From the NCBI RefSeq assembly GCF_001423845.1, contig NZ_LMPM01000001.1, positions 1,155,493 to 1,219,492 on the forward strand: a DNA stretch of 64,000 bases, given 5' to 3'. Within the stretch, counting starts at the first letter, position 1; every line of letters begins with the position of its first letter. The notes beneath the pieces were generated by a model. The model worked only from the letters and a program-made list of their open reading frames with translations, was not told the origin of the DNA and searched no databases. This DNA is from Sphingomonas sp. Leaf357 (GTDB lineage Bacteria > Pseudomonadota > Alphaproteobacteria > Sphingomonadales > Sphingomonadaceae). Below are positions 22,867-38,542 of the stretch, piece by piece. A program made the translations under genes and the position numbers.

Positions 22867-23838
22867 GTGAAACTCGCCACCCTGGATGACGGTACCCGCG
22901 ATGGCCGCCTTTTCCTCGTCTCCCGCGATCACGCGCGCGCAGCGTCAGCCGATGGCATCGCGGCGACTCTGCAGGAGGCGCTCGAGCGGTGGAGCGTGGT
23001 CGAGGCACCGCTTCGCGCCCGTGCCGTAGCGCTCGAAAGCGGTGACCTGAACGATGCGATCGATTTCGTGGCGGGCGATGCGCTCGCCCCGCTGCCACGC
23101 GCATGGCAGTGGCTCGACGGCTCCGCCTATGACAGCCACGGCGCGCTGCTGCGGTCGGTGTCGGGGCGCGCGGCTCCTCCTCCGGGGCCGCTGATGTATC
23201 AGGGCGTGTCGCACACCTTCTATGCGAGCACCGCCGATTTTCCGGCGCCGAGCGAAAGCCACAACATCGATTTCGAGGGTGAATTCGGGATCATCGTCGA
23301 TGACGTGCCGATGGGAACGACGGCCGAGGAGGCCGCGTCGCACATCAAGCTGATCGTGCTGATCAACGATTGGTCGTTGCGGGGTTTCGCAGGACGCGAG
23401 TCGGCGATCGGCTTCGGCTGGGTGCAGGCCAAGCCGCCGTGCAGCGTCGCTCCGGTCGCGATCACGCCCGACGAACTGGGCGTGCACTGGCGCGACGGGC
23501 GGGTCGACCTGCCGCTGCTGGTCGACTGGAACGGCGAGCGCTTCGGCGCGGCGCAGGGCTATCATATGAGCTGGTCGTTCCCGGAGCACGTGGCGCACGC
23601 CGCGCTGACCCGGTCGCTGTGCGCCGGCACGATCATCGGCGGCGGTACGGTTTCGAACGAGAATTACCGCGAGGTCGGATCGTCGTGCATCGCCGAGCGG
23701 CGCGGAATCGAGGCGCTCGACGAGGGCAAGCCGCGGACCGAATTCATGAAATTCGGTGATCGCGTGCGGATGGAAGCGACGCTGCCCGACGGCGCGCCGC
23801 TGTTCGGCGTGATCGACCAGAAGGTCGTGCCGGCATGA
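22867..23838 (+). CDS. Fumarylacetoacetate hydrolase (FAH) family protein
   Basis: The 323-residue reading starts at GTG 22867 (VKLATLDDGTRDGRLF) behind GGGAGA; an ATG at 22840 would add residues that do not belong to the family. FAH signatures are visible: the metal ligands in HNIDFEGEFGIIVDDV, the INDWSLRG segment with its Asp, FGWVQAKPPCSVAPV, and AGTIIGGGTVSNEN. FAH enzymes cleave or hydrate acyl-pyruvates and similar ring-opening products, so this could act late in aromatic breakdown. It starts a rightward operon with a 4-bp overlap to the next gene and is probably controlled by the divergent LacI protein. Confidence 0.93.
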   Translation: MKLATLDDGTRDGRLFLVSRDHARAASADGIAATLQEALERWSVVEAPLRARAVALESGDLNDAIDFVAGDALAPLPRAWQWLDGSAYDSHGALLRSVSGRAAPPPGPLMYQGVSHTFYASTADFPAPSESHNIDFEGEFGIIVDDVPMGTTAEEAASHIKLIVLINDWSLRGFAGRESAIGFGWVQAKPPCSVAPVAITPDELGVHWRDGRVDLPLLVDWNGERFGAAQGYHMSWSFPEHVAHAALTRSLCAGTIIGGGTVSNENYREVGSSCIAERRGIEALDEGKPRTEFMKFGDRVRMEATLPDGAPLFGVIDQKVVPA

Positions 23839-24134
23839 TCTTCGAAATCGCCGAGATCGACGTGATCGCGGGGCACGAAACCGCATTCGAAGCGGGCGTC
23901 GCCGAGGCCGCGCCGCATTTCAAGGCGGCGCGCGGTTGCCGCAGCTTCGCGCTCACCCGCGGGATCGAGCATCCGCAGCGCTATCGCCTGACGGTCGGCT
24001 GGGACAGCGTCGAGGATCATATGGTGCATTTCCGCGACAGCACAGGATTTCAGGCGTGGCGCCGCCTTGTCGGCCCGCATTTCGCCGCCCCACCGCGCGT
24101 CGACCATGTCGAACGCGTGATCATTAGCTTCTGA
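23835..24134 (+). CDS. Antibiotic biosynthesis monooxygenase (ABM) domain protein
   Basis: The 99-residue protein has the small alpha-beta ferredoxin-like ABM fold: AEIDVIAGHETAFEAGVAEA, GCRSFALTRGIEHPQRYRL, TVGWDSVEDHMVHFRDSTGF. Such proteins are dimeric, cofactor-poor oxygenases or muconolactone-isomerase-like enzymes; the true reaction here is unknown. It overlaps the FAH gene by 4 bp and lies 18 bp before the dehydrogenase, so it belongs to the same pathway. Confidence 0.88.
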   Translation: MIFEIAEIDVIAGHETAFEAGVAEAAPHFKAARGCRSFALTRGIEHPQRYRLTVGWDSVEDHMVHFRDSTGFQAWRRLVGPHFAAPPRVDHVERVIISF

Positions 24135-24152
24135 AGACCAAAGGAACGACAC

Positions 24153-25508
24153 ATGGCAATCTGGCTCAAACAGGGGTCGACGGCGGCGGCGCGTGCCGAT
24201 CTGGACCGCAAGGTGCGCGACGTGGTGGAAAGCACGCTCGCCGATATCGAGACGCGGGGCGATGCTGCCGTGCGCGATCTCTCGATCAAGTTCGACACAT
24301 GGGACCGCGACGATTATCGGCTGAGCGATCGCGAAATCCAGGACTGCATGGACCAGCTAACCGGGCAGGATCTGAAAGACATCGAGTTCGCGCAGACGCA
24401 GGTCCGCAACTTCGCGCAGATCCAGCGCAACAGCATGAAGGACGTCGAGGTCGAGACGCTGCCCGGCGTCGTGCTCGGCCACAAGCACATCCCGGTCAAT
24501 GCAGCGGGCTGCTACGTCCCCGGTGGCAAATACCCGCTGCTCGCCTCGGCGCATATGTCGGTCATCACCGCCAAGGTCGCGGGCGTCCCGCGCGTCATCA
24601 CCTGCGCGCCGCCGTTCGAGGGCAAGCCCGCCCCCGCCATCGTCGCCGCGCAACACATGGCCGGCGCCGACGCAATCTATGCGTTGGGTGGCATCCAGGC
24701 GATCGGCGCGATGGCGCTGGGCACCGAGAGCATCGAACGCGTCGATATGCTGGTCGGCCCGGGCAACGCCTTCGTCGCGGAGGCCAAGCGGCAATTGTTC
24801 GGCCGCGTCGGCATCGACCTGTTCGCCGGCCCGACCGAGACGATGGTGATCGCCGACGACAGCGTCGATGGCGAGATCTGCGCGACCGACCTGCTCGGCC
24901 AGGCCGAACACGGCCCCGACAGCCCGGCGATCCTGATCACCAATTCGGAGAAGCTGGCACGCGACACGATGCGCGAGATCGAGCGGCTACTGACGATCCT
25001 GCCGACCGCGTCGATCGCCGCCAAGGCGTGGGAGACGTATGGCGAGATCATCGTTTGCGAGGACGAGGCCGAGATGGCCCGCATCGCAGACGATTACGCC
25101 AACGAGCATGTGCAGGTGATGACGCGTGATCCGGAGTATTTCCTGAACACGATGACCAATTACGGTGCCCTGTTCCTCGGCCCGCGCACCAACGTGGCGT
25201 TCGGCGACAAGGTGATTGGGACCAACCATACTCTGCCGACGAAGAAGGCGGCGCGCTATACCGGCGGCTTGTGGGTGGGCAAGTTCATCAAGACCTGCAC
25301 CTACCAGAACGTCACGACCGATGCGGCGTCCGCGCTGATCGGCGAATATTGCAGCCGGCTGTGCGCTTTGGAAGGTTTTGCCGGCCACGGCGAACAGGCC
25401 AACATCCGCGTGCGCCGCTATGGCGGCCGGAACGTGCCCTATGCCGGCGCAGTCGCGCCGTCGGGGGCTACGGCGCTGCGGCACGAGCCGGCCACAAACC
25501 ACATTTGA
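24153..25508 (+). CDS. Histidinol-dehydrogenase family enzyme, probably catabolic
   Basis: The 451-residue protein is a full-length HisD homologue. All catalytic and zinc residues are in place: Gln250 and His253 (GQAEHG), Glu318 and His319 (ANEHVQV), Asp352 (FGDKVIG) and His412 ([12 protein letters not shown]), corresponding to Q259, H262, E326, H327, D360 and H419 of E. coli HisD. No other histidine gene is nearby; instead it sits in an FAH-ABM-SDR operon. The C-terminal ligand region reads AGHGEQ rather than DAHAEA, as in non-biosynthetic paralogues such as sulfopropanediol dehydrogenases. It likely oxidises a primary alcohol to an acid in two NAD-dependent steps. A ribosome site AAGGAACG precedes the ATG. 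Confidence 0.9.
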
Positions 25509-25528
25509 CGTCGGTAAACGCCGACGTC
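25507..25528 (+). repeat. Perfect 8-bp-arm hairpin at the dehydrogenase stop
   Basis: GACGTCGG and CCGACGTC flank a 6-base loop TAAACG and begin inside the stop codon of the HisD-type gene. No T-run follows, so it is more likely an mRNA-stabilising or attenuating hairpin than a full terminator. A second small stem (TTTGC / GCAAA, about 25542-25559) brackets the GGGGG ribosome site of the next gene. Confidence 0.45.
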
Positions 25529-25564
25529 CTACGCCGTAATGGTCACATTTGCTTGGGGGCAAAC

Positions 25565-25882
25565 ATGGTCCGCGACGACACTGGACGAGTTTGTGTCTTG
25601 CTCGAACTCACGCTGGCCAACATGGCCGTACTTTGGGATGGTGCGGCGCGGGTCGCGGGCGCGGTTCACGCAATGACAGATGACGAAGTCATGGAAATGC
25701 TCGGCCCGCGCGACGATCCCGACGCCACGGCCTGTGCTGCCATGTTGTTCGACACGGTGGTGAAGCAGAGCGGCGCGATCGATACGCCCACGATCAAGGT
25801 CACGAGGTTCGACGAGGAAGCGACCTGGTCTGCCGACACGGTACCGGCGTCTGGCCGTCGACGTGGGGCGACTGGTGGCTGA
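25565..25882 (+). CDS. Small acidic protein, function unknown
   Basis: The 105-residue protein (MVRDDTGRVCVLLELTLANM...) starts at ATG 25565 behind a GGGGG ribosome site. It has a hydrophobic first half, an acidic middle (MTDDEVMEMLGPRDDPDATA) and a basic, Gly-rich end (SGRRRGATGG). I do not recognise a family and see no signal peptide or membrane segment. It lies between the HisD-type gene and an SDR gene and overlaps the SDR start by 20 bp. It could be a subunit or chaperone for one of its neighbours, or a marginal coding region. Confidence 0.45.
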   Translation: MVRDDTGRVCVLLELTLANMAVLWDGAARVAGAVHAMTDDEVMEMLGPRDDPDATACAAMLFDTVVKQSGAIDTPTIKVTRFDEEATWSADTVPASGRRRGATGG

Positions 25883-26645
25883 GCGACTTCCGCGCACGCC
25901 GAGCTTCCGGCTCGACGGCCGCCGCGCCATGGTGACGGGGGCCGGGCGGGGCATCGGGCTCGCCGCGGCCGCCGCGCTCGCCGAAGCGGGTGCGGCGGTG
26001 ACGTTGATCGCGCGCACCGGCGACGAGATCGCGGCGGGCGCGGACGCGATCCGCACGGCGGGCGGAACGGCCGAATCCGTAACGCTCGACGTATCCGACC
26101 TCGAGGCTGTCGCCGGGTTCTTCGCCGCGCGGCCGGCATTCCACGTCCTCGTCAACAATGCCGGGACCAATCGGCCTAAGGCGATGGTCGAGGTGAGCGA
26201 AGCCGATTACGATGCGGTGCTCGATCTCAACCTGAAGAGCGCCTTTTTCGTCGCGCAGCATTGCGTGAAGCGGATGCTGTCCGATCGGATCGCCGGCAGC
26301 CTGATCCATATGGGATCGCAGATGGGCCATGTCGGCGGGCCGAATCGATCGCTGTATTGCGCGTCGAAATGGGCGCTCGAGGGCATGAGCAAGGCATTCG
26401 CGCTCGATCTGGCCGCGCACGATATCCGTAGCAACACGATCGCGCCGACCTTCATCGAGACGCCGCTGACCCGCCCGTTCTTCGAAGACCCCGTCTTCAA
26501 GGCAAGCGTGCTGGCGAAAATCAAGCTCGGCAGGCTCGGCCAAGTCGAGGATCTGATGGGTGCGATCCTGTTTCTCGCCGCGGACGCGTCGGCGCTGATG
26601 ACCGGCACAAGCCTGGTCGTCGATGGCGGCTGGACGGCGGACTGA
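25863..26645 (+). CDS. Short-chain dehydrogenase/reductase (SDR)
   Basis: The 260-residue classical SDR has the NAD(P) motif MVTGAGRGIG (about 23-32), NNAG (VLVNNAGTN), catalytic Ser in HMGSQMGHVG and the YCASK pair, and the C-terminal TGTSLVVDGGW. It reversibly oxidises a hydroxyl group, probably with NAD(H). GTG 25863 or GTG 25875 can serve as start; both overlap the upstream gene. It closes the LacI-linked operon and meets the convergent TetR gene 9 bp later at a strong hairpin. Confidence 0.92.
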   Translation: MGRLVAERLPRTPSFRLDGRRAMVTGAGRGIGLAAAAALAEAGAAVTLIARTGDEIAAGADAIRTAGGTAESVTLDVSDLEAVAGFFAARPAFHVLVNNAGTNRPKAMVEVSEADYDAVLDLNLKSAFFVAQHCVKRMLSDRIAGSLIHMGSQMGHVGGPNRSLYCASKWALEGMSKAFALDLAAHDIRSNTIAPTFIETPLTRPFFEDPVFKASVLAKIKLGRLGQVEDLMGAILFLAADASALMTGTSLVVDGGWTAD

Positions 26646-26663
26646 CGCCGCCGGTCAGTCCGC
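26637..26663. terminator. Bidirectional hairpin between convergent SDR and TetR genes
   Basis: Perfect 10-bp arms GCGGACTGAC (26637-26646) and GTCAGTCCGC (26654-26663) with a 7-base loop cover both stop codons. No T-run is present on either side, so it may need Rho or act mainly as an RNA 3' barrier. Confidence 0.5.
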
Positions 26664-27314
26664 TGCGGACTTCATCATGCCATGCATCAAAAGTTTGACC
26701 AGAAACGCCTGATAGCCATCGGCCAATTTATCCATGTCGGTATTCTTCGGCAGCAGCCCCTGGATCAGCGGTCCGGCGGATGACAGGAAGTCGCTCGCCC
26801 CGAGCACGGCGACGAACAGATAGAAGGGATCGGCCTCGACCAGTTGCTTGCCCCCGTCGGCTTTCAGCAACGTGCGATAGAAGTCGATCAGCTCGAGATT
26901 CATGTGACGGACGCGATCCCTGGTTTCGTCCGGTTCGGCCTGCGCCAGCTCGTCGATCATCAGGCGATTCATGTACGGAGCGCGGCGAACGAGCTTGACG
27001 GTTTGCGCGATATGAGCCGCCAGCGCGGTGGCGGGGTCTCCTTTCGGCGGCTCGCGGTGGTCGTGAACGGTCACGCGGTCCACCACGGCCAGGAGCAAGG
27101 CATCGCGGCTGCCGAAGTGATAATAGACCAGTGAGGGCGTGACGTTCGCTTCCCGCGCAACGCGTGGAATGGTCACCCGTGCCGGTGGTATCGTGCGCAG
27201 AAGTTTTTCCGTGGCAGCGAGCAGGCCTTCGCGGCCGACATCGTTCTTGCCCGGCACGGGCCGCCCTTTGCCACGCTTCGGGGCCGCTTTCGAGACTGGA
27301 TCAGGTTGCGTCAT
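26655..27314 (-). CDS. TetR family transcriptional regulator
   Basis: The 219-residue protein has the TetR helix-turn-helix (LLRTIPPARVTIPRVAREANVTPSLVYYHFGSRDALLLAVVD) and a helical ligand domain (MNRLMIDELAQAEPDE and following). The first 25 residues are basic and Pro-rich. ATG 27314 was chosen over a longer frame because the extra residues are not family-like. It is a candidate regulator of the cupin-SDR genes and of the TonB and dioxygenase operons, since an 18-bp palindrome of TetR-site size occurs three times there. Ligand unknown. Confidence 0.9.
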   Translation of the reverse strand: MTQPDPVSKAAPKRGKGRPVPGKNDVGREGLLAATEKLLRTIPPARVTIPRVAREANVTPSLVYYHFGSRDALLLAVVDRVTVHDHREPPKGDPATALAAHIAQTVKLVRRAPYMNRLMIDELAQAEPDETRDRVRHMNLELIDFYRTLLKADGGKQLVEADPFYLFVAVLGASDFLSSAGPLIQGLLPKNTDMDKLADGYQAFLVKLLMHGMMKSAAD

Positions 27315-27450
27315 TGCGGCGGTATCCTGTTTCCTGGCTCGGCTGGCAACCACGGGTTGCGCGCCGCGCGGCGGGTCGGCGTGATTCGGCTTTCGACGCT
27401 CGCGCAGCCCGCCTGCTTGGCCAGTCACGGCAAAAGTGTTCTGGCACCCG

Positions 27451-27960
27451 CTAGGGCTTCAAGCCTTCGCGCGGATGAATCTCGCGCAGCGGGACATCGT
27501 TCACGGTGGCCGGCGTGGCGTCGATCAGGACGAAGGCGACCCGTGCTGTTACGTCCGCACTGGGGTTGCGCCAGCTGTGGATGGTGCCGCGCTGCACGAC
27601 GATGCCGCCGGGTTCGACCAAGGTGGAGTGTCTGTCGTCCAGGATAAGTTCGATCGCACCCGAAATGACGATGCCGTAATCCAAGCTGTTGGTGCGATGC
27701 ATCGGCGCAACGGTGCCCGGCAGCATATCGACAACTCGGATGATCGACCCGCCCGGCAGGGTCAGATCGAGCTTCCGTTCGCGGCCATCGCTGGCGTCGT
27801 CATTATCGACCGGCAGGCCCTGCGACGACCAGATCGTCGTATGCAGCGACGTTCCGCTGGGATTGGGCACGCCATCGAACGCGGCGTCGGACAGCACTAC
27901 AGCCTTGCCGGCGGCATCATGCCCGGTGACGATGCGGCGTACGGGGGGCAAGGTCGGCAT
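27451..27960 (-). CDS. Cupin domain protein
   Basis: The 169-residue protein has a single cupin barrel: the first motif around MLPGTVAPMHRTNSLDYGIV and the second around VEPGGIVVQRGTIHSWRNPS, giving His ligands for a metal but not the full HxHx3-4E pattern (Asp and Tyr take the middle places). Related proteins are small dioxygenases, isomerases or ligand sensors in aromatic pathways. ATG 27960 has GGGAGC from the SDR 3' end at a good distance; 27972 is an alternative. It follows the SDR gene with no gap and is co-transcribed with it. Confidence 0.85.
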   Translation of the reverse strand: MPTLPPVRRIVTGHDAAGKAVVLSDAAFDGVPNPSGTSLHTTIWSSQGLPVDNDDASDGRERKLDLTLPGGSIIRVVDMLPGTVAPMHRTNSLDYGIVISGAIELILDDRHSTLVEPGGIVVQRGTIHSWRNPSADVTARVAFVLIDATPATVNDVPLREIHPREGLKP

Positions 27961-27961
27961 A

Positions 27962-28738
27962 TCAGCTCCCATCGGTAATCACGGTGCCGCCATCGACGGT
28001 GAGCACCTGGCCATTGACGAAGCCGCCGGCCGGCGCGGCAAGAAAGACCGCGGTGCCGGCGATCTCGTATGGCTGGCCCATGCGGCGCAGCGGGGTCATC
28101 TGCATCCGTCGCGCCATAAAGGCGGCATCGGCTTTCAGATGGTCGGCCAGGCGCGTGTCGATAAGCCCGGGCGCGATCGCGTTGGCGCGCACGCCCTTCG
28201 GGCCCCATTGCACGGCGATGTTGCGCGCCAGTTGGGTGACGCCCGCCTTGGCGAGCGCATAGGCATCGATCTTGGCATTGCCGCGCAGCGCCGAAATGCT
28301 CGCGGTGAGGATCACCGACGCGCCCTCGCGCTTGGCCATGTGCGGCAAAGCGTGCTTGGTCAGCACCACCATCGAGCGCAGATTGATCGCCAGGACCCGA
28401 TCGAAAACGGACATGTCGAGCGGATCCGCCGCCGGGCCACCCTGGATGCCGGCATTGGACACCAGAATGTCGATGCCGCCGAACCGGTCCACCGTCTGCG
28501 CCACCAAAGATGCGATGGCGGCATCGTCGGACACGTCGCAAACGATGCCCGTCGCGCGACCCGTGTTCTCGCCGGCATTAAGAGTCTCGGCGGCAGCGGC
28601 GGTGTCCTCGGCGTTTTCGCTCGACACGACCACCGTCGCTCCATGCGCCACCATCGCCTCGGCGATCGCATAGCCCAGGCCGCGGCTCGACCCGGTGACG
28701 ATCGCGACCCGTCCCGAAAGATCGAACAGGTTCTTCAT
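27962..28738 (-). CDS. Short-chain dehydrogenase/reductase (SDR)
   Basis: The 258-residue classical SDR has VTGSSRGLGYAIAEA (cofactor site, from residue 15), SNAGIQGG, catalytic Ser in ILTASISALRG and Tyr/Lys in DAYALAKAG, and ends with the usual VLTVDGGTVI. It is unlike the SDR at 25863-26645 in detail, so the two probably catalyse different steps. It is divergent from the TonB receptor; a palindromic site ATTGAT-N6-ATCAAT lies 42 bp upstream of its start. Confidence 0.93.
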   Translation of the reverse strand: MKNLFDLSGRVAIVTGSSRGLGYAIAEAMVAHGATVVVSSENAEDTAAAAETLNAGENTGRATGIVCDVSDDAAIASLVAQTVDRFGGIDILVSNAGIQGGPAADPLDMSVFDRVLAINLRSMVVLTKHALPHMAKREGASVILTASISALRGNAKIDAYALAKAGVTQLARNIAVQWGPKGVRANAIAPGLIDTRLADHLKADAAFMARRMQMTPLRRMGQPYEIAGTAVFLAAPAGGFVNGQVLTVDGGTVITDGS

Positions 28739-28945: not shown

Positions 28946-31393
28946 ATGAAAGGCTTCATGTTGGGATCGGCGTCTGTCCTGGCGATTTTCGCCGTGCCGG
29001 CGCACGCGCAAGGCGCGCCTTCGGATGCGACGCAGAACGGCTCCGGGCCGCAGGCGGAAATTCCGCAGACCGTCGTCGGGCACGAGGGAGAACTCGAAGA
29101 GATTATCGTTACCGCGCAGCGGACCGAGCAGTCGGCGCAAAAGGCACCGATCGCGATCGCGGTGGTCCGGCCCGAGGAGCTGATCCGCCAGAACGTCACG
29201 CGCGCAGAGGATCTGTCGCGTGTCGTGCCGGCGTTGGTGGCGACCGCATCGGGCGGTGCCAATACCAGCTTCTTCGTGCGCGGTGTCGGCAACACCACGA
29301 CCAATTCGTACAGCGACCCGGCGATCTCGTTCAATTACGACGGCGTCTATATCGGTCGCCCGAACTCGACCCAGGGTTTCTTCTACGACCTGCAGCGCAT
29401 CGAAGTGCTGAAGGGGCCGCAGGGCACGCTCTATGGCCGCAATGCGACCGGCGGCGCGATCAACGTCCTGCCCAACCGTCCCGAACTCGGCGTGACCAGT
29501 GGAGAAGTTCAGGCCAGCTACGGCAACTACAATGCCATCCAGGCGCAAGGCGCGCTGAACCTGCCGATCGGCGGCAGCGGGGCGTTCCGCCTGGCGGGCG
29601 CGATCAACCGGCACGACGGCTATCTGTCGGACGGCACCAGCGACCAGAAGGAATATGCCCTGCGCGCGCAGGTGCTGGCCGATCTGACGCCCGCGCTGAC
29701 CACGCGGATCGGTGTCGATTACGCGCATCAGGGTGGCCGGGGCACCGGTTCCTATCTCTACGGCACCTATGCATATGCTCCGGCCACCGGCTTCGTCTTC
29801 ACGCCGACGCCGCAGTTCGGCCCCAAGGTCGGGGTACACGATCCCCGCACCGAAGCATTCGTCCAGAACATCTTCGTCTCGCAGGTCGGTCGAACCTCCG
29901 AGGCCACCGGCACGCTGCCCAGCCAGAACAACGCGGTATGGGGCATCACCAACGAAACCAACTGGACGACCGGTGCGGGAACGCTGACGGTCCAGGCCGC
30001 CTATCGCCAGTCCGACATTAATGCGCTGTCGACCACGTCCAACTTCCGCGGCGCCTATGCTGACGAGCACACCGATCAGGCCACGCTCGAGGCGCGCTTC
30101 GCCGGAAAGGCCGGCCCGGTCGATTATCTGGTGGGCGCGTTCCTGTTCGACGAGGATATCGACGCCGCGAACTCGATCAACCAGATCGTCACGGTCCCGT
30201 TCCAGACCTACAAGACCGGCACCAACTCGAAGGCCGTGTTCGGGCGCCTCGCGCTGCATGCCACCGATGCACTGACGCTCACGGCGGCCGGCCGCTACAC
30301 CGACGACAGCAAATACATGAGCGGCCTGAGCAACGTCTTCACGCTGAACTGCGGCAATCCCTTCGCGCCCCCGCAGGACCTGTGCCCGACATTGCCGTTG
30401 GTGCCGCTCGTCCGTACGCCGGCGGAGCTCATCGCCTTCTATACCTCGCGTGGAATCCTCGTCGGCAACAATGGCGTGAACCCGGCTCCGGTGCTCAACA
30501 CGCCGCGCGTCCTGAATACCCAGATTCCGATCGACGCGACGCTGGAGACGAAGAAGTTCACCTATCGCCTCGCCGCAGACCTGCAGCTCACGCCGTCGAA
30601 CCTGCTCTATGCCAGCTACGAGACCGGTTTCCATGCCGGCGGTTTCAGCTTCGGGAAGGGAGTCGAAACCTACAAGCCGGAGTCGATCCGCGCCTTTACG
30701 GTCGGCTCCAAGAACCGGTTCTTCGGCAACCGCGTGCAGTTGAACATCGAAGGCTTCTACTGGAAGTACAAGGACCAGCAGGTCAGCCAGTTCGGCACCG
30801 ATTTCAGCACGCCGCCGATCTCGGTCTTCTACACCACCAATATCGGCAGCAGCACGATCAAGGGCGTCGATGTCGATCTCGACGCCCGGGTGACGCCGAC
30901 CACGCGGATCGGCGGTAGCGTCCAATATCTCGACACAAGCTACGACACGTTCATCTTCAACGTTACGACTGCCGCTCCCACCCCGCCGAACTACGCCTGC
31001 CCGGCGCCGATCGTCGGCGGCTTCTACCGCGTGGATTGTTCCGGCAAGCAGGCGTTATTCTCGCCGAAATGGTCGTTTAACGCCAATATCGAACAAACGA
31101 TCAAGCTCGACGGCTTCAGGCTGGTCGCACAGGGCGGAACCCGCTGGCGCGGCGATTTCTACGCTGCCACTACCTACCAGCCCTGGGTGATCTCAAAGGC
31201 GGCATTCCAGTCGGACGCGTCGTTGACGCTCGCGCCCGACTCGGACGGCTGGTTCGTCACAGCCTTCGTCAACAATATCGAAGACAAGCGCCGCATCACG
31301 CAGTCCAACGTCAACGGCACGTTGAGCACGCAGTCGGCCATCGCCACGGCCCCGCGAACCTACGGCATCCGCATCGGGGGACGGTTCAAATAA
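28946..31393 (+). CDS. TonB-dependent outer-membrane receptor
   Basis: The 815-residue reading starts at ATG 28946 behind GGAGGAGGG; the longer frame from 28829 was rejected. It has a signal peptide (MKGFMLGSASVLAIFAVPAHA), a TonB-box-like EEIIVTAQR, the plug motif RGVGNTTTNSYSDPAI, then LKGPQGTLYGRNATGGAIN, and a barrel ending IRIGGRFK. This is the sphingomonad type seen with catabolic clusters rather than iron transport. It is divergent from the SDR-cupin operon and upstream of the dioxygenase operon, so it likely brings in that pathway's substrate. Confidence 0.95.
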   Translation: MKGFMLGSASVLAIFAVPAHAQGAPSDATQNGSGPQAEIPQTVVGHEGELEEIIVTAQRTEQSAQKAPIAIAVVRPEELIRQNVTRAEDLSRVVPALVATASGGANTSFFVRGVGNTTTNSYSDPAISFNYDGVYIGRPNSTQGFFYDLQRIEVLKGPQGTLYGRNATGGAINVLPNRPELGVTSGEVQASYGNYNAIQAQGALNLPIGGSGAFRLAGAINRHDGYLSDGTSDQKEYALRAQVLADLTPALTTRIGVDYAHQGGRGTGSYLYGTYAYAPATGFVFTPTPQFGPKVGVHDPRTEAFVQNIFVSQVGRTSEATGTLPSQNNAVWGITNETNWTTGAGTLTVQAAYRQSDINALSTTSNFRGAYADEHTDQATLEARFAGKAGPVDYLVGAFLFDEDIDAANSINQIVTVPFQTYKTGTNSKAVFGRLALHATDALTLTAAGRYTDDSKYMSGLSNVFTLNCGNPFAPPQDLCPTLPLVPLVRTPAELIAFYTSRGILVGNNGVNPAPVLNTPRVLNTQIPIDATLETKKFTYRLAADLQLTPSNLLYASYETGFHAGGFSFGKGVETYKPESIRAFTVGSKNRFFGNRVQLNIEGFYWKYKDQQVSQFGTDFSTPPISVFYTTNIGSSTIKGVDVDLDARVTPTTRIGGSVQYLDTSYDTFIFNVTTAAPTPPNYACPAPIVGGFYRVDCSGKQALFSPKWSFNANIEQTIKLDGFRLVAQGGTRWRGDFYAATTYQPWVISKAAFQSDASLTLAPDSDGWFVTAFVNNIEDKRRITQSNVNGTLSTQSAIATAPRTYGIRIGGRFK

Positions 31394-31487: not shown

Positions 31488-32393
31488 ATGACGGCCCGAG
31501 TCACCGATCTTCATTATGTCGCCCACGCGGTCCCGGATCTGGTCGCGGAACGCAAATTCTATGGCGAGACCTGGGGCCTGACGGAGGTCGCGGAAGAAGA
31601 TGGGAAGGTCTATTTCGCGGCGGAAGGCTCCGAGCATCCGTTCGTCATTCGCCTGCGGCAGGACGACGAGAAGAAGACCGATCTGATCGGATTCTCGGCG
31701 GAGTCGAAGGCCGACGTGGATGCGATTTACGCCCAGGCGATCGCCGCGGGTATGAAATCGATCCGCGAGCCCGGTCCGGCCGAGGGGCCGCAAGGGGGGT
31801 ATGCGGCGCGTTTCTTCGATCCCGAAGGTCGGGCGCTCGAAGTGATCTGCGACGTCACCAAGCGCGCGTCGCGCACGCTCGCCAAGGGCGAGTCGATCCC
31901 GATCGGGATAAGCCACGTCGTGTTCCATTCCCCCGATCACAAGGGCCTGACGAAATTCTATCAGGACGTCCTCGGCTTCAAGGTCTCGGACTGGCTGGGT
32001 GAGTTCATGGTATTCCTGCGCTGCAATCCGGCGCACCACCGGCTTGCCATCATGCCCGGCAAGCCGGCGCTCAACCACGTCGCGTTCGACGTCAGCTCCA
32101 TCGATGAGATGATGCGCGGCCTGGGCCGTTTGACCAGGGAAGGCGTGACGCTGAGCTGGGGGCCGGGCCGCCACACCGCCGGCAACAACACGTTCACTTA
32201 TTATCTGACGCCCAACGGCAACGCGGTCGAATATACCTCCGATGTCGAAGAGTGCGACGACGAATGGGTGCCCAACACCTATGAGATGAACGCCCAGATC
32301 TCCGATCAATGGGGCACCGGCCGGATCATCCCCGGCAACGTGCCGCATCAGACGGCGGAAGCCGACAAGGGTCTGTGGTGCGTACCGGCTTGA
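31488..32393 (+). CDS. Two-domain VOC protein, probable type I extradiol dioxygenase
   Basis: The 301-residue protein has two vicinal-oxygen-chelate domains, the plan of 2,3-dihydroxybiphenyl dioxygenases. The C-terminal domain keeps the metal triad: His143 (GISHVVFH), His197 (LNHVAFDV) and Glu248 (NAVEYTSD), and an HHRLAI segment where BphC-type enzymes carry a catalytic His. This predicts Fe(II)- or Mn(II)-dependent ring cleavage next to the two hydroxyls of a catechol-like substrate. ATG 31488 follows AGGAAAG. A flavin monooxygenase and an alpha/beta hydrolase follow within 60 bp, which fits a hydroxylate-cleave-hydrolyse order. Confidence 0.85.
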   Translation: MTARVTDLHYVAHAVPDLVAERKFYGETWGLTEVAEEDGKVYFAAEGSEHPFVIRLRQDDEKKTDLIGFSAESKADVDAIYAQAIAAGMKSIREPGPAEGPQGGYAARFFDPEGRALEVICDVTKRASRTLAKGESIPIGISHVVFHSPDHKGLTKFYQDVLGFKVSDWLGEFMVFLRCNPAHHRLAIMPGKPALNHVAFDVSSIDEMMRGLGRLTREGVTLSWGPGRHTAGNNTFTYYLTPNGNAVEYTSDVEECDDEWVPNTYEMNAQISDQWGTGRIIPGNVPHQTAEADKGLWCVPA

Positions 32394-32421
32394 ACCGGGG
32401 GACGCGAGGATCCGGCAGGTC

Positions 32422-33531
32422 ATGGTGAAGAACGTTCTCGTCGTCGGTGGCGGCATCGGCGGGATGTCGGCGGCGCTGGCGCTCACCCGGCGCGGCATGC
32501 AGGTGGCGCTGATCGATTCCGATCCCAATTGGCGTGTCTACGGCGCGGGAATCACGATCACCGGCATGTCGCTGCGCGCGTTCGACGATCTCGGCGTGCT
32601 CGATGACATTCGCGCACGCGGCTTCGTGCACAACGGGATGCGGCCGCGCCGCTTTACCGGCGAAGTGCTGCCCGGACCGCCGCTCGCCGCCGAAAATGCG
32701 CCACCGGTCATGCTCGGGGGTGGCATCATGCGTCCCGTCCTGCACGACATCCTGTCGACGCGCGTGCGGGCGACGGGGATCGACGTGCGGCTCGGGGTCG
32801 CGGTCCAGGCCATCGACCAGGACGACACCGGCGTCGATGTCGTCCTGAACGACGGCACCAAGGAGCGCTATGATCTCGTCGTCGGTGCCGACGGCATCTT
32901 TTCGACGATGCGCACGATGCTCTTCCCGGATGCGCCGAAGCCCAAATTCACCGATCAGGGGTGCTGGCGGATCGTCGCCGATCGACCGCCGGAGATCGAT
33001 CGCGCGGAGATCTATTTCGGCGGACCGATGAAGATCGGCATGTCGCCGATCTCGCAGGACCAGATGTATGTCTTCCTGCTCGAGCATGTTCCCGGCAACC
33101 CGTGGTTCGCGCCGGAAACGCATGTCGCGCATCTGAGCGAATTGATGGCTCCCTTCGGCGGACACATCCCGGCGATCCGCGCGGCGCTCGGCGACGATTC
33201 GAACATCGTCTATCGGCCGCTCGAATGGCTGTTGCTGCCCGATCCCTGGTACAAGGGGCGCGTCGTCCTGATCGGCGATGCCGCGCACGCGACGACGCCG
33301 CAGATGGCGTCCGGCGCGGGGTTGGCGGTCGAGGACGGGCTGGTGCTCGCCGACGAACTGTCCAAGACCGACGACATCGCGGTAGCCTTGCGCGGCTTCA
33401 TGGATCGCCGGTTCGAGCGCGCCAAACTGGTGGTCGAGACCTCGGTCAAGTCGGGCGAACTGGAAATCGCGGGCGCACCTCAGACCGGCATCATGGCGGC
33501 CGCGAACAAGACGCTGGCGCAACCTTACTGA
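32422..33531 (+). CDS. FAD-dependent aromatic monooxygenase (PHBH-type)
   Basis: The 369-residue protein has the group A flavoprotein hydroxylase motifs: GGGIGGMSAALAL at the N terminus, the DG motif (VVGADGIFSTMR), and the FAD/ribityl GD motif GDAAHATTPQMASGAGLAVED. It should use NAD(P)H and oxygen to hydroxylate an aromatic ring, making the diol needed by the adjacent dioxygenase. It lies 28 bp after the dioxygenase gene and 51 bp before the hydrolase gene. No membrane segment or signal is present. Confidence 0.92.
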   Translation: MVKNVLVVGGGIGGMSAALALTRRGMQVALIDSDPNWRVYGAGITITGMSLRAFDDLGVLDDIRARGFVHNGMRPRRFTGEVLPGPPLAAENAPPVMLGGGIMRPVLHDILSTRVRATGIDVRLGVAVQAIDQDDTGVDVVLNDGTKERYDLVVGADGIFSTMRTMLFPDAPKPKFTDQGCWRIVADRPPEIDRAEIYFGGPMKIGMSPISQDQMYVFLLEHVPGNPWFAPETHVAHLSELMAPFGGHIPAIRAALGDDSNIVYRPLEWLLLPDPWYKGRVVLIGDAAHATTPQMASGAGLAVEDGLVLADELSKTDDIAVALRGFMDRRFERAKLVVETSVKSGELEIAGAPQTGIMAAANKTLAQPY

Positions 33532-33582
33532 CATGGCGGCGTCGCGCGACCGTTCGCGGCGGCAAACAGACAGGATCGATCC

Positions 33583-34737
33583 ATGAGCTTTTCAGACCCG
33601 CGCATTGCGCCGTCCCGCACGCTGGAAGAGTTGCGTGAGGACACGATCAGGCGGATCAAGGGCAACGGCTATCCCGGCCGGGGCATTCGCCTGGCCGATG
33701 CCGAGGTCGCGATGGCCGAACTGTCCTCGCTCGACCCCGACGATTGGGCGAAGGTGTGGATGGCGGCGGGCGATGGCGTGATCGCGGAGGCCGAACGCGT
33801 CGCCAGCCCCGACGCGCAGCGCGAGCTCTACAAGACGGCCTTTTCGACCTATACGATGGGGCGGTTCCCGACCCCCACGACGCCCGGCAAGCAGACCTCC
33901 TACGGCAAGGCGATCGAGGCATACATGCGCTACGCCGAGTTGCTGCCGCAGAAGCTGGAGGTCGTCCGCATCCCCTTCGAAGGCAAGGAGATCATCGGGT
34001 ATTTCCGCAAGCCCGAAGGCGCCGGTCCGTTCCCGCTGATGGTCCAGTGCGGCGGCCTCGATTACTGGAAGGAACAGGTCGCCGACGAGGCGCTCAACTA
34101 TCTGCCGCACGGCATCTGCGTGATGGGGCTCGACATGCCCGGCACCGGCCAGGCCCCGATCAAGGGCGATGTCGGTGCGGAGCGGATGTTCACGACCGTA
34201 TTCGACTGGGCGCAGACCCGCCCCGATATCGACGGCACGCGCATGTTCATGCGTGGTGTCAGCTGGGGCGGCCACTGGGCGACGCGGGTCGCGATCGCCG
34301 AGAAGGATCGCCTGCTCGGCGCGATCAACCATGGCGGCGCGGTGCATCATTTCTTCCAGCCGGAATGGCAGTTGAAAGCGCTCGGCACGCGTGAATATCT
34401 CATGGATCTGTTCGGCGCGCGCGCAAACGTGTTCGGGGTCAAGACGCTCGACGAGTTCCTCGAATACGGCCCGCGCATGTCGCTGCTGATCGACGACCAG
34501 ATCGATCTGCCGACCGCACCGATGCTGGTGATGAACGGTGCTAAGGACAGCCAGGTGCCGATCGCCGACCAACTGCTGCTGCTCCAGCGCGGCGACGCGA
34601 AGGAAGCCTGGATCAATCCCAAGGGCGTCCACATGGGCTTCGGTGCCGGATGGGGCCCGGAGCGGACGATCAAGGACATCATCGTCCCCTGGCTGCTAAA
34701 GAAGCTCGCGCAGCATAAAGACAGCCAGGCCGGTTGA
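33583..34737 (+). CDS. Alpha/beta hydrolase, related to C-C bond hydrolases of the DHPON-hydrolase/FrsA type
   Basis: The 384-residue protein has an N-terminal helical cap region (1-130) and an alpha/beta hydrolase core with nucleophile Ser227 (RGVSWGGHWA), Asp322 (NGAKDSQVP) and His350 (KGVHMGFG), the normal order. Size and cap resemble 2,6-dihydroxy-pseudooxynicotine hydrolase and related beta-ketone hydrolases. In this operon it probably hydrolyses the ring-cleavage product or an acyl side chain. A long cap and the PMLVMNG strand separate it from the exported hydrolases of region 1. It is cytoplasmic (no signal peptide). Confidence 0.85.
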   Translation: MSFSDPRIAPSRTLEELREDTIRRIKGNGYPGRGIRLADAEVAMAELSSLDPDDWAKVWMAAGDGVIAEAERVASPDAQRELYKTAFSTYTMGRFPTPTTPGKQTSYGKAIEAYMRYAELLPQKLEVVRIPFEGKEIIGYFRKPEGAGPFPLMVQCGGLDYWKEQVADEALNYLPHGICVMGLDMPGTGQAPIKGDVGAERMFTTVFDWAQTRPDIDGTRMFMRGVSWGGHWATRVAIAEKDRLLGAINHGGAVHHFFQPEWQLKALGTREYLMDLFGARANVFGVKTLDEFLEYGPRMSLLIDDQIDLPTAPMLVMNGAKDSQVPIADQLLLLQRGDAKEAWINPKGVHMGFGAGWGPERTIKDIIVPWLLKKLAQHKDSQAG

Positions 34738-34799
34738 GGCGGGCGCGGCGATACTGCCGGAGCCCATTCGACACGATGCCTGAGCGGAGAGGAACGGAT

Positions 34800-36092
34800 A
34801 TGGACGTGACGCAGACTGGCACGCTACCGCGCAAAGGCCCGGTCGCAGCCTACGGCCTGACCTTGCTGTTCCTCGCCAACATGCTGAACTATGCCGATCG
34901 CAGCCTGCTCGGCATTGTTGTCGAGCCGATCCGCAAGGAATTGCTGCTCAACGACACCCAGATCAGCATCGTTTCGGGCTTCGCCTTCTCCCTGTTCTAC
35001 CTGATCGCCGGGATCGCCATCGCGCGCTGGGTCGATCGTGGCAATCGCCGGTTGATCCTCGCTTTGGGGGTGGCCTTATGGTCGGCCGCGACGGCGGCGA
35101 CCGGCCTGGCACAGGGGTTCGTCTCTCTCGCCTTGTGCCGCATGCTCATCGGCGTGGGCGAGGCGACCGTCTTTCCGGTCGCCTTGTCGCTTCTGGCCGA
35201 TCTCTATCCAGGCCCCCGGCTGTCACGCTCGGTCTCCATCTTCCAGGCGAGCGGCGGCGTCGGAATCATGGCCGGCGCGGTGCTGGCCGGGCTTTTGGCG
35301 GCATCGTTCGGCTGGCGCGCGACGTTCGGACTTTTCGGCGTGGTCGGGGCGCTGGTCGTCCTGCTGATCGCGTTTACGATGCGACCGACGCCGCGCACCG
35401 CCGCGCACGGCCCGAAGGAGCTGGAAAACGGCGGGGTTCCGCCCGAAGACGGTCGATTGCTGCCAGCGGTGCGCGCCATTCTGACGGTTCCCGGCTTCGC
35501 TTGGCTCGCTTTCGGCTATGCCGTCTCGAACATGATGCTGGCCTGCCTGCCGACCTGGGCTCCCGCCTTCCTGCTGCGGTCCCACGGCGTGGAACTCGCT
35601 CATATCGGTGCCGTGGTCGGCCCGCCGGCAGTGATCGGCGGCCTTGCCGGCACGATCCTGTCAGGTATCTTCTCCAGCAGGCTGATCGCGCGCAGCGGCA
35701 ATCGCCGGGCCGGGCTGATCGTGCCGATCGTTGCCTTGCCGCTGGCGGTACCGGCGTTCGCGCTGTTCCTGTTCGCGCCGTCGCTACCGGTGGTGATGAT
35801 CGGGATCGGGGTGATGAACTTCATGTTGTCGAGTTCGCTCGGGCCCTGCGTCGCGCTGGCGGTGTCGCTGGTCTCGCCGAACAGGCGCGGCCTGACCTCG
35901 ACGATCATGCTGATCGTACAGACGATCATCGCCTTCGCGCTCGCGCCGCTGATCGTCGGCGCCGCAAGCGATGCGTTCCGGCCGAGCTATGGCGAGGAGG
36001 CGCTGCGTCACGGATTGACGCTGATGCTGGTGACGCCGCTGCTGGCATCGTTGCTGCTGTGGATCGCGCGCCGCCGCATCGTTGCGGGCTGA
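34800..36092 (+). CDS. MFS transporter, spinster-like family
   Basis: The 430-residue protein has 12 membrane segments and the family opening LLFLANMLNYADRSLLGIV and SGFAFSLFYLIAGIAIARWVDR, typical of spinster-like carriers and aromatic-acid/metabolite MFS proteins in sphingomonads. ATG 34800 follows GAGAGG; ATG 34776 is a possible longer start. It follows the hydrolase by 62 bp and so belongs to the dioxygenase operon. It probably carries the pathway substrate or an intermediate across the inner membrane. Confidence 0.92.
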   Translation: MDVTQTGTLPRKGPVAAYGLTLLFLANMLNYADRSLLGIVVEPIRKELLLNDTQISIVSGFAFSLFYLIAGIAIARWVDRGNRRLILALGVALWSAATAATGLAQGFVSLALCRMLIGVGEATVFPVALSLLADLYPGPRLSRSVSIFQASGGVGIMAGAVLAGLLAASFGWRATFGLFGVVGALVVLLIAFTMRPTPRTAAHGPKELENGGVPPEDGRLLPAVRAILTVPGFAWLAFGYAVSNMMLACLPTWAPAFLLRSHGVELAHIGAVVGPPAVIGGLAGTILSGIFSSRLIARSGNRRAGLIVPIVALPLAVPAFALFLFAPSLPVVMIGIGVMNFMLSSSLGPCVALAVSLVSPNRRGLTSTIMLIVQTIIAFALAPLIVGAASDAFRPSYGEEALRHGLTLMLVTPLLASLLLWIARRRIVAG

Positions 36093-36262
36093 AGCGGTGC
36101 GGCTGCCGCCTCTCGATCCGATCGGGAAACCGCCGCGAACCGATCGACGCAGGTTGCCATGATGCCGGCATCCGGTCGCTGCGACGGACTACATGTCTTG
36201 GCCGGAATGCTCTTGCCGGCGGTGATCAGCCAAGAGCGTGGGACTTTCGGGACGGTTTAGAG

Positions 36263-36724
36263 ATGGCACAGGAATATTGGTTTCATCACGTCGGCTTGAG
36301 CGTGACGGACTTCGAGGGTTCGATCGACTGGTATGCGCGGGTACTTGGCTTTCGATGCCAGGGGCGCTTCCACAACCCCAATATCCCGGCCGACATGGCA
36401 ATGCTGCGGAACGGCGACATGCACGTCGAATTGTTGTGCGTGCCCGGCTCCGTTCCGGTCCCGCCGGAGCGTACCATCCCCGACGAGGATCTCAAGACCT
36501 GCGGCAACAAGCACATCTCGTTCGCCTGCGCCGATGTGCCGGCCGCGATCGAGGACATCCGTTCCCGCGGCGGTGACGTCGTCTGGATCAAGGACAATGG
36601 CGGCGGGCGGATCAACGCGTTCATCCGCGATCACGAGGGTAATCTGATCGAATTCATGCAGCGCGCGCGCGTGGAGGACCATCAGGCGTTTCTACAGGAC
36701 GTGCGATCCACCACGCCCGCCTGA
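36263..36724 (+). CDS. VOC family protein (single domain, glyoxalase-like)
   Basis: The 153-residue protein has one VOC module pair with possible metal ligands His in FHHVGLSV, Glu in MHVELLC, His in NKHISFAC and Glu in NLIEFMQ, an H/E/H/E set like glyoxalase I and methylmalonyl-CoA epimerase. Such small members isomerise or lyse, rather than cleave rings. ATG 36263 is the first good start; the long open frame from 35078 lies over the MFS gene. It follows the MFS gene by 170 bp and may have its own promoter. Confidence 0.88.
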   Translation: MAQEYWFHHVGLSVTDFEGSIDWYARVLGFRCQGRFHNPNIPADMAMLRNGDMHVELLCVPGSVPVPPERTIPDEDLKTCGNKHISFACADVPAAIEDIRSRGGDVVWIKDNGGGRINAFIRDHEGNLIEFMQRARVEDHQAFLQDVRSTTPA

Positions 36725-36907
36725 CGATCGCGGTATCGGGTGGCCAAAGCCCTGCCGGACAGTGGCGCGGAGCCGCTACCGCCCAACCATGAACGAGCGT
36801 TTCAACTCGGTGTGAAACTTCGGGGACAGCGCGACGTTGGACGGGCGATGCTGGCGGAAGGCTCCGGTTGTGGCTCGGTGCCGGAATACGGGCCAATTGC
36901 GGCGCGA

Positions 36908-38542
36908 TCATATCGTCGGCGTATCGATCGGTTTGGCCAATTCCGCCCCGACGATATTGCCCATGTCGTGTGAGCTGGTAATCCCCTGGATGAACGGATG
37001 TCGTCCCAGGATGTACGGGATACTGAGGCAATAAAGTCCTCGCGCCGCAGGGTGTTCGGAAACCGGGTGAAAGGTTTCGTCGATCGCGACTCCCTTGGGG
37101 CCGTTCTCATCGCCCTCCGCGGCATCGCGGACCACGCCCTGTTCGAGCAAGGTCGGGAACGGGAAAGTGTCGATGGCGAGCGGGCGTTGCCCGGTGGCTT
37201 CGATGAAGACCGGGTAATGCTCCCGCTCGCTATTGCATAGGACGGTGGCCCCGGATTCCCTGCCGTGCGTATCGATCCGCGCGCCGTCGCCGAGCGCGGT
37301 GACGCTGAGCCGCCCAGCCCGATGCAGCGCCATCATCCGCTCGATCGAGACATGGGGGACGGTCGCATATTCGTCGACGAAGACCGGCTTCAGATAGCGG
37401 TTGAACCGTTCGAGCGCTTCGACATTGAGATGCGGCGCGATCAGGGCGAGCACTTCGTGCATGCGCAGGATGGCATAGCGCCACGGCACGGTGACGGCCG
37501 CCGCGTAATTCGCGCGTGCCTCGGCGAGATTGGTCTCGGCCCAGGCGAACGGGTCGGTCGCGACGCGCTCGGCGAAGTAGCGATCGGCGAAATCCTCCAG
37601 TGCAAGCCCCGCGAGCCCGACCCGGGCGGCGTAGTCCGGATCGGCCCGCAGCAACTCCTGCTTGAACAGCGCGTAGGACTGTTCAAGCAAGGTGTCGCAC
37701 TGCTCTTCGATCAGCAGGTTCACTGCTTCGGGCGTGCAGATCGCGAGTGGTTCGTAGGGCACCGGGTGATGGAAATCCGCCTCCGGCAACAACCCCTTGC
37801 GGGACATCATGGTCATGTCGAACGCCTCGGCCCCGGGATTGAGGCGATAGTCGATCGCCTGATGGTCGGTCTCGATGAACGTGCCGTGCGCCACCGCCAG
37901 CGCGACCGCGGCATCGATCGCGGTCAGCGAACTGCCGCGAATGCCGACCTTGGCGGCGGGAATACGCTGCAACGCGGTCGCCGGCCACGGGCTGAGGAAG
38001 TAACCGGGGCGGACCTCGGGCTCCTCGGGCCATCGATGCCCGGTGGCGAGCACGACCCGGTCGAACCTGCTTTGATATGGTGCTCCCTTTGTCGGAGCGA
38101 CCGAAAGGCACAGGCCATCCGCCACGGCCGCAATGTCGAGGACCCGGCAGCGCGTCGCGATCTCGACCGTGATGCCATGGTCGCGTGCGCGGGCGATCAA
38201 CGCGGTGAACTGATCCAGGAAATATTCGCCTAGCGCCAGGCGCGGATAGAAAGCGTGATCGTCGATCTGGTCAGGATCGATGCCGAGACGGACGAGCCGC
38301 GCACGGGGCTGTCGCTCGAGCCACGCGATCAAAGTTTCGTCGATCGGCGGAATCTCGACACTGGCGATGTTCGACAGCATCGCCGGATCGTTCCATCCCG
38401 GCCGGTATGGCGTCCCGAGCCCGGCGCGCGGCTGCTCCTCGAAGATGGTGATCTCCCCTGGCAGGATCTCCTCGTCGAGAAGCGCGCACAGAGTGTAGAT
38501 CGTGGTCGGGCCGGCACCGACAAAGGCAATGGACAAGGACAT
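36908..38542 (-). CDS. FAD/NAD(P)-binding protein (PF13454-like)
   Basis: The 544-residue protein opens with an FAD site (FVGAGPTTIYTLCALL) and a second nucleotide motif around DRVVLATGHRWP, followed by a long helical middle and a C-terminal FAD loop (CLSIPYILGRHPFIQGITSS). The family is large and mostly uncharacterised; some members hydroxylate amines or act in natural-product pathways. ATG 38542 was chosen, but upstream in-frame ATGs at 38578 and 38599 are possible and no strong ribosome site marks any of them. It converges on the VOC gene and closes the catabolic region. Confidence 0.75.
   Translation of the reverse strand: MSLSIAFVGAGPTTIYTLCALLDEEILPGEITIFEEQPRAGLGTPYRPGWNDPAMLSNIASVEIPPIDETLIAWLERQPRARLVRLGIDPDQIDDHAFYPRLALGEYFLDQFTALIARARDHGITVEIATRCRVLDIAAVADGLCLSVAPTKGAPYQSRFDRVVLATGHRWPEEPEVRPGYFLSPWPATALQRIPAAKVGIRGSSLTAIDAAVALAVAHGTFIETDHQAIDYRLNPGAEAFDMTMMSRKGLLPEADFHHPVPYEPLAICTPEAVNLLIEEQCDTLLEQSYALFKQELLRADPDYAARVGLAGLALEDFADRYFAERVATDPFAWAETNLAEARANYAAAVTVPWRYAILRMHEVLALIAPHLNVEALERFNRYLKPVFVDEYATVPHVSIERMMALHRAGRLSVTALGDGARIDTHGRESGATVLCNSEREHYPVFIEATGQRPLAIDTFPFPTLLEQGVVRDAAEGDENGPKGVAIDETFHPVSEHPAARGLYCLSIPYILGRHPFIQGITSSHDMGNIVGAELAKPIDTPTI

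Follow-up and report, generated by a model that had tools for sequence, protein, structure and literature searches.

Gene content and layout of the cluster

The DNA analysed here (the window) is a stretch of 64,000 nucleotides from Sphingomonas sp. Leaf357 (contig NZ_LMPM01000001.1, positions 1,155,493 to 1,219,492 of the forward strand), and this report concerns a gene cluster in it that is predicted to encode the cleavage of an aromatic ring. At its centre, the genes for an extradiol-type dioxygenase of the VOC family, a flavin hydroxylase (FMO) and an alpha/beta C-C hydrolase (ABH) adjoin without interruption at 31488-34737, downstream of the gene for a TonB-dependent receptor (TBDT). Nearby are the genes for an MFS carrier, a cupin, two SDR-family dehydrogenases, an FAH-family hydrolase, an ABM protein and a HisD-like dehydrogenase. 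A preliminary description, made from the sequence alone, had named this whole inventory, and it was borne out: according to the list of open reading frames and a Pfam domain scan covering 17 window proteins (selected proteins were also compared with the NCBIfam equivalogs), every gene named is an intact frame with the expected domains above the Pfam cut-offs. The set extends to a LacI-family regulator and also includes a TetR-family regulator and a second small VOC protein, three genes absent from the earlier list. The features are given below with their strands.

21585..22667, minus: LacI-family regulator (Pfam LacI and Peripla_BP_3), divergent from the FAH operon
22840..23838, plus: FAH-family hydrolase of the acylpyruvate or C-C hydrolase type (PF01557 and PF18288)
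23835..24134, plus: ABM-domain protein of the small monooxygenase or isomerase type (PF03992), under 100 amino acids (aa)
24153..25508, plus: HisD-family alcohol dehydrogenase, HpsN-like (PF00815)
25514..25882, plus: reading frame between HisD and SDR1 that may not be a gene (no Pfam match)
25863..26645, plus: SDR1, SDR-family dehydrogenase paired with HisD (Pfam)
26655..27428, minus: TetR-family regulator (PF00440)
27451..27972, minus: cupin (Cupin_2), of the family of the fde-like operon cupins
27962..28738, minus: SDR2 (Pfam), overlapping the cupin gene
28946..31393, plus: TBDT (plug and barrel above cut-off)
31488..32393, plus: extradiol-type VOC dioxygenase (PF00903; H143/H197/E248)
32422..33531, plus: Group A flavin hydroxylase, FMO (PF01494, NF005313, GxGxxG/DG/GD motifs, tree)
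33583..34737, plus: alpha/beta C-C hydrolase, ABH, related to Ayg1 and 2,6-dihydroxypseudooxynicotine (DHPON) hydrolase (PF06500; predicted triad S227-D322-H350)
34800..36092, plus: MFS carrier (PF07690)
36263..36724, plus: second small VOC protein, VOC2 (PF00903)

The FAH gene may start with ATG at 22840 or GTG at 22867. For the TBDT gene, whose open frame extends back to 28829, the start was chosen where a signal peptide is likely. Between HisD and SDR1, the sphingomonad locus L050 and the Rhizobium locus L064 leave no space for the frame at 25514..25882. The spacing suggests three transcription-like units. In the first, LacI on the minus strand is divergent from FAH-ABM-HisD-(unassigned frame)-SDR1 on the plus strand; FAH and ABM overlap by 4 bases, and gaps of 18 and 354 bases separate ABM from HisD and HisD from SDR1. 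The second, SDR2-cupin-TetR, lies on the minus strand with an overlap of 11 and a gap of 22 bases, and the third, TBDT-VOC-FMO-ABH-MFS-VOC2, on the plus strand with gaps of 94, 28, 51, about 60 and about 170 bases. The last ~1.6 kb of the interval first described holds a minus-strand gene for an FAD/NAD-binding protein (PF13454, 36908-38500). In Polymorphobacter megasporae no such gene adjoins that of the MFS carrier. Just downstream is an alpha/beta hydrolase, MetX-like by eye (38687-39799), and both genes were left out of the set.

The hydroxylase, the dioxygenase and the hydrolase

In the VOC protein, H143, H197 and E248 had been pointed out in the preliminary description; they stand at the positions given and are invariant in all eight aligned VOC proteins. 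The same is true of H183, H184, H229 and Y238, and H183/H184, H229 and Y238 align with residues of BphC (1han) that we take to be catalytic second-sphere residues. This combination of 2-His-1-Glu iron ligands and second-sphere His/His/Tyr, found by alignment, is that of a type I (VOC) extradiol dioxygenase. Among solved structures, 3b59 comes closest (E 4e-99); its only name is glyoxalase/bleomycin resistance protein/dioxygenase. The protein scored below the NCBIfam cut-offs for HpaD, catechol 2,3-dioxygenase, BphC and HsaC, the best result being 98.4 vs 321.4 bits.

The FMO scores 435.9 bits for NCBIfam NF005313, against a cut-off of 372, and carries the GxGxxG, DG and GD motifs. As to the hydrolase, all 47 aligned relatives share S227, D322 and H350, which are read from the alignment as the probable catalytic triad. 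Its nearest solved relatives are Ayg1-type proteins (8qd7, E 2e-39), followed by AbyA5 and DHPON hydrolase (E 1.3e-10). With both Ayg1 and DHPON hydrolase it shares the alpha/beta hydrolase class with a Ser-Asp-His triad; it is homologous to the Ayg1 type along most of its length and to DHPON hydrolase in the middle part, although it is distant from them in sequence. The triad and the overall homology place it in the Ayg1/DHPON-type family, and C-C hydrolysis is its predicted activity. Given the active-site residues of the dioxygenase and the hydrolase, the motifs of the FMO and the nearest relatives of each, hydroxylation followed by extradiol cleavage and C-C hydrolysis is the natural reading of the trio, the activities being predicted.

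The TBDT-VOC-FMO-ABH-MFS block is syntenic in P. megasporae (p29362-2, a lichen isolate) and in the sphingomonad G653, the trio being 79-84% identical. In P. megasporae the identities are 69% for the TBDT, 79% for the VOC, 79% for the FMO, 80% for the ABH, 63% for the MFS carrier, 74% for the cupin and 78% for SDR2. G653 has the same gene order (TBDT 71%, VOC 80%, FMO 79%, ABH 84%, MFS 69%), with a cupin-SDR2 pair (72% and 80%) about 10 kb further on, and TetR homologues occur in both (57% in the P. megasporae cluster, 59% in G653). The two share with the window the order TBDT-VOC-FMO-ABH-(FAH)-MFS plus cupin, SDR2 and TetR; they differ from it in an FAH of another type, which stands between ABH and MFS, in an additional amidohydrolase and epimerase and, in the stretches read, in having no HisD, SDR1 or ABM. 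The close ABH type is rare: it was found in 2 of 396 genomes of the order at E 1e-80 and in 1 of 398 genomes of the phylum at E 1e-40, the own genome being counted each time. Among 61 relatives, 23 had a match at E 0.001, the best after the own one being 30% identical.

Since the host is a sphingomonad and a VOC dioxygenase and a TonB receptor are present, the cluster could be compared with the edc steroid/estrogen A-ring pathway of Novosphingobium tardaugens. According to PMC7793797, edc likewise includes a dioxygenase of the extradiol class and, as EdcT, a TonB receptor, while hydroxylation is by the P450 EdcA (4-hydroxylase) and an indolepyruvate ferredoxin oxidoreductase, EdcC, takes part. 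In the window, a flavin hydroxylase stands where edc has the P450, and neither an EdcA-like P450 nor the EdcC family is among the Pfam matches of the 17 proteins scanned. We therefore rejected an edc-type estrogen pathway, which we consider very improbable. By analogy with EdcT, the TBDT of the cluster fits bulky substrates in general.

Comparison with the fde and ifc flavonoid clusters

The preliminary description had concluded that the cluster matches no textbook system. This was not supported: its plan is shared with the fde and ifc clusters, its FMO groups with fde-like FMOs, and its FAH and cupin have homologues in the fde-like operons. In the fde cluster of Herbaspirillum seropedicae SmR1, naringenin is hydroxylated at position 8 of the A ring and then cleaved in meta fashion, an FMO being followed by a VOC-type dioxygenase as in the window. 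FdeE is described as an FMO with the Rieske partner FdeD in PMC8552027, and as a flavonoid C-8 hydroxylase of the fde operon in PMC11303751. For ifc of Variovorax sp. V35, which acts on isoflavones, PMC11069340 reports that the FMO IfcA yields 8-hydroxydaidzein; that with IfcB, which is of the glyoxalase type like FdeC and 65.8% identical to it, a peak appeared that agreed with X2, the next intermediate, with substrate left over; and that the cupins IfcD1/D2 act on the pyranone intermediate X3. It also places a DHPON-hydrolase-like ABH within ifc and states that the gene for the step from X2 to X3 was not found. An FMO, a glyoxalase-type dioxygenase, an ABH and cupins are thus named for V35, a cluster known to us by description, and are present in the window too. 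The same paper mentions IfcA homologues, with conserved ifc genes, in Sphingopyxis as well, so a sphingomonad with ifc is already in print.

Operons of other species, which we call fde-like, were used for comparison. Three of them, from Azospirillum B510, Diaphorobacter HDW4B and Burkholderia anthina (L117-L119), have the order ABH-(EthD)-VOC-Rieske-FMO-(MFS)-cyclase-(cupin)-FAH; an epimerase gene comes later, and two of the three include a cupin. We infer that this is the fdeA-J order, and the content fits the published descriptions of fde and ifc. The FMO of the window is 46-52% identical to the FMOs of these Rieske-containing operons and to a Massilia FMO; in a midpoint-rooted tree with long branches it grouped with the fde-like FMOs (support 100/98, 24 of 42 rows, authentic FdeE not among the rows). 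Outside this group branch one ifc-like Bradyrhizobium FMO and the FMO of the type-B cassette described below, and Bradyrhizobium FMOs from loci of ifc-like appearance are only 36-37% identical to that of the window. A Streptomyces match (L120) was dropped for its biosynthesis-like surroundings. The FAH is 53% identical to that of the B. anthina operon and 57% to one of Sphingobium yanoikuyae (L005), and the cupin, whose nearest solved structure is 3es1, is 37% identical to that of B. anthina. By these comparisons, the cluster appears to follow the plan of fde (naringenin) and ifc (isoflavone), namely to hydroxylate, to cleave in extradiol fashion and to process the product with ABH, cupin and FAH, and to be built partly from different enzymes. 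Its VOC and ABH belong to other subfamilies than those of the fde-like operons, the MFS carrier is unlike theirs (31% over 51 aa), and a TonB receptor, HisD, SDR1, ABM and LacI are added. Two Variovorax plasmid loci (L126, L127) were tried as ifc references and rejected; they hold cupin, FAH and epimerase homologues, with no FMO, VOC or ABH probe match within 14 kb on each side.

A scan of genome contigs with the FMO alignment gave 57 loci among the matches listed, none of them from H. seropedicae or Variovorax V35. After 18 loci with short matches only (L099-L116) had been left out, the neighbours of 18 loci with an FMO at least 43% identical were compared with those of 21 loci with an FMO at 27-32%; several loci end at contig ends, and the distant-FMO set spans other phyla. 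FAH (6 v 0), fde-type VOC (7 v 0), fde-type ABH (5 v 0) and TonB receptors (8 v 0) were more frequent beside the close FMOs, with p values of 0.0007-0.015, uncorrected for the 13 features compared. There was no significant difference for Ayg1-type ABH, SDR2 and cyclase (3 v 0 each), cupin and window/type-B VOC (2 v 0 each), HisD, SDR1 and VOC2 (1 v 0 each) or ABM (0 v 0).

On these grounds we think it probable, with some reserve, that the cluster serves the catabolism of a polyphenol of the plant type. The most likely candidate is a flavonoid or a compound close to one, whose resorcinol- or phloroglucinol-like hydroxylated ring would be opened as in fde and ifc. Of the earlier suggestion that the TonB receptor points to a bulky lignin-type or plant phenolic substrate, the bulk is in keeping with the data; "lignin-type" has no specific support, and a flavonoid-type polyphenol seems the better guess.

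Several points weigh against this flavonoid reading. The comparison was with operons of other species, the proteins of H. seropedicae and Variovorax V35 being outside it. The VOC falls outside the subfamily of the fde-like operons, to which it aligns over 142 residues only at 34% (authentic FdeC and IfcB were not among the proteins compared), and the ABH is only 28% identical to the fde-like ABH, of another subfamily. No FdeD-like Rieske domain is present among the 17 proteins scanned, a genome-wide search not having been made, and a search of the genome without a positive control gave no cyclase match. In ifc, disruption of the ABH reportedly left daidzein degradation unaffected (PMC11069340). 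Moreover, the neighbours of close FMOs are patchy: HisD and SDR1 were each found in 1 of 18 loci, the cupin in 2, SDR2 in 3 and ABM in none, so that 17 lack HisD, and 12 lack FAH.

The same chemistry might also be directed at something other than a flavonoid, namely a polyketide of lichens or fungi, an acyl-resorcinol or an acyl-phloroglucinol; the Ayg1-type hydrolase would then cut an acyl side chain off a polyketide-like ring. We regard this as possible but unlikely. The hydrolase is far nearer to the Ayg1 type than to DHPON hydrolase, as the E values above indicate, and the closest named relative of the cluster is lichen-derived; however, a single lichen isolate is thin ecological evidence, and FMO, FAH, cupin and SDR2 are common to fde-like or related sets. 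Besides, the likeness to Ayg1 points to no single substrate, because 8qd7 (E 9.7e-16) is almost as near a match to the hydrolase found in the fde-like operon as DHPON hydrolase is (E 8.9e-17). In a related and equally tentative proposal, the cluster would be a separate, rare sphingomonad route for polyphenols without known bacterial breakdown genes (e.g. lichen or fungal polyketides and acyl-phloroglucinols), with an Ayg1-type retro-Claisen hydrolase in place of the fde-like DHPON-type enzyme and a HisD-type four-electron alcohol dehydrogenase acting late.

The HisD/SDR1 module, the predicted pathway and the host genome

The nearest solved relative of the HisD-like protein is the sulfopropanediol 3-dehydrogenase HpsN (382 bits vs 246 for the best histidinol dehydrogenase), and its Massilia homologue is 66% identical. 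It scores above the cut-off of TIGR00069, yet a true histidinol dehydrogenase was rejected: the protein is nearer to HpsN, its gene is not among his genes, and another HisD-family gene, 38% identical, lies elsewhere in the genome. It is thus probably not for histidine biosynthesis. Unlike HpsN, it stands in an aromatic gene setting, and none of the genes scanned in the cluster is a sulfonate gene.

Whether HisD and SDR1 belong with the ring-cleavage genes bears on another explanation, in which two systems are neighbours: LacI-FAH-ABM-HisD-SDR1 would serve a compound of another kind, either a small alcohol or one resembling a sugar, and ring cleavage would be left to TetR-cupin-SDR2 and TBDT-VOC-FMO-ABH-MFS. 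In Roseomonas and Klebsiella plasmids, LacI homologues (53% and 46%) adjoin HisD and SDR1 homologues with no FMO or VOC in the stretches read, Rhizobium bangladeshense has HisD without SDR1, and the core block of P. megasporae and G653 stands without HisD, SDR1 or ABM in the stretches read, all of which agrees with such a division. On the other hand, SDR1, HisD, FAH, cupin and SDR2 homologues occur together, with VOC and/or FMO and ABH, in N. aromaticivorans pNL2 (L128), Blastomonas RAC04 (L129) and L050, the last from a relative of the same family. Furthermore, a cupin at least 47% identical lies within 3 kb of HisD in six of the nine sphingomonad plasmid records among the 30 HisD matches listed (of 381 records) and about 15 kb away in one more; the other two had no cupin among the 25 cupin matches listed (of 114 records). 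We find the division into two systems doubtful. As HisD and SDR1 are found both with ring-cleavage genes and without them, they look like a portable module recruited to this cluster. The LacI-HisD-SDR modules of Roseomonas (L131:4856-9019) and Klebsiella (L132:4773-8083), in which no ring-cleavage probe matched, are annotated as histidinol dehydrogenase.

The earlier view of hydroxylation, ring cleavage, hydrolysis and oxidation as one linked set is supported by the sequence, in that other bacteria have homologues of FAH, cupin and SDR2 together, next to genes for FMO, VOC and/or ABH, and some of these loci also include HisD and SDR1; the comparison loci, chosen for similarity, show that these genes can be neighbours, not how often. 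SDR1 homologues (64-78%) adjoin HisD in L050, Rhizobium L064, N. aromaticivorans, Blastomonas and Sphingobium V4 (L135). The Rhizobium locus combines SDR1, HisD, FAH, SDR2, FMO, VOC and ABH, with no cupin detected, and that of Sphingobium V4 has ABM-HisD-SDR1 beside an FMO and a TBDT. ABM homologues adjoin HisD in Sphingobium V4 (58%) and occur in the Blastomonas cluster (53%), VOC2 homologues (39-40%) are in the N. aromaticivorans and Blastomonas clusters, and SDR2 is 54-63% identical to its counterparts in L049, N. aromaticivorans and Blastomonas. FAH, cupin and SDR2 homologues also occur together without HisD (L049, L063, L067). A Rhodococcus locus (L008) with VOC and ABH homologues was rejected; it has no FMO probe match and carries a ring-hydroxylating dioxygenase. 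In both N. aromaticivorans pNL2 (L128:13495-19352) and a Massilia putida plasmid (L007:8495-13308), the FMO/HisD set has a further gene set next to it, which comprises an MhpA-like hydroxylase, a heme-binding protein, a VOC protein, an FAH hydrolase and an amidohydrolase and might act on the other ring as a partner pathway.

If the flavonoid-type reading is taken, the substrate would enter through the TonB receptor and then the MFS carrier, and the FMO would add a hydroxyl beside an existing phenol. The VOC dioxygenase would open the new 1,2-diol ring in extradiol fashion, and the Ayg1-type hydrolase would then act on the fission product, which resembles a 1,3-dicarbonyl, and split one of its C-C bonds. 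The remaining pieces would be worked up by the cupin, SDR2 and FAH, and HisD with SDR1 would oxidise an alcohol fragment to the acid. The class of each enzyme, the residues of the active sites, the tight order of the genes and their synteny are read from the DNA, and the substrate and the reactions are predicted from them. If this scheme is true, sphingomonads too use the hydroxylate-and-cleave plan that is known from two flavonoid clusters of betaproteobacteria, and combine it with TonB uptake; the ring-cleaving and C-C-cutting steps would be interchangeable between distant subfamilies, and a gene automatically named histidinol dehydrogenase would belong to aromatic breakdown. It would also offer testable enzymes for polyphenol turnover in soil, on plants or on lichens. 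A TonB-linked cluster of this kind in sphingomonads was not found among the titles and opening lines of abstracts listed from the open-access literature, subscription journals being outside the search.

The genome (3.87 Mb) holds a second cassette at 2.312-2.322 Mb, with FMO, VOC, fde-like ABH, TBDT, epimerase, FAH and cupin (C1:2304000-2323900), and three LigB-family matches above cut-off. Given these and the second HisD-family gene, the strain seems to be a degrader of aromatic compounds that has two cassettes of the hydroxylate-and-cleave kind. The second is of a type, here called B, that also occurs in Sphingomonas R1 and N. pentaromativorans. It resembles the window cluster in its FMO, VOC (~50%) and FAH (53-67%), and in several cases in its TBDT and cupin, but differs in an fde-like ABH (56% to that of B. 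anthina) and an FMO only 39-44% identical. Its VOC (at least 59%) was found in 5 of 398 phylum genomes, the own included, and the type-B cassette is commoner than the window cluster. In Sphingobium TomTYG65 (L057:4461-18658) the type-B cassette adjoins genes for a GMC oxidoreductase, Gfo/Idh, GH3 and AP-endonuclease-type PF01261 proteins, the last presumably deglycosidase partners. This neighbourhood suggests that C-glycosides of flavonoids are used. Published abstracts tie both GMC oxidases and DgpA, a Gfo/Idh enzyme, to C-glycosides such as puerarin, and PMC12724307 describes the deglycosylation of puerarin by PurA and PurBC.

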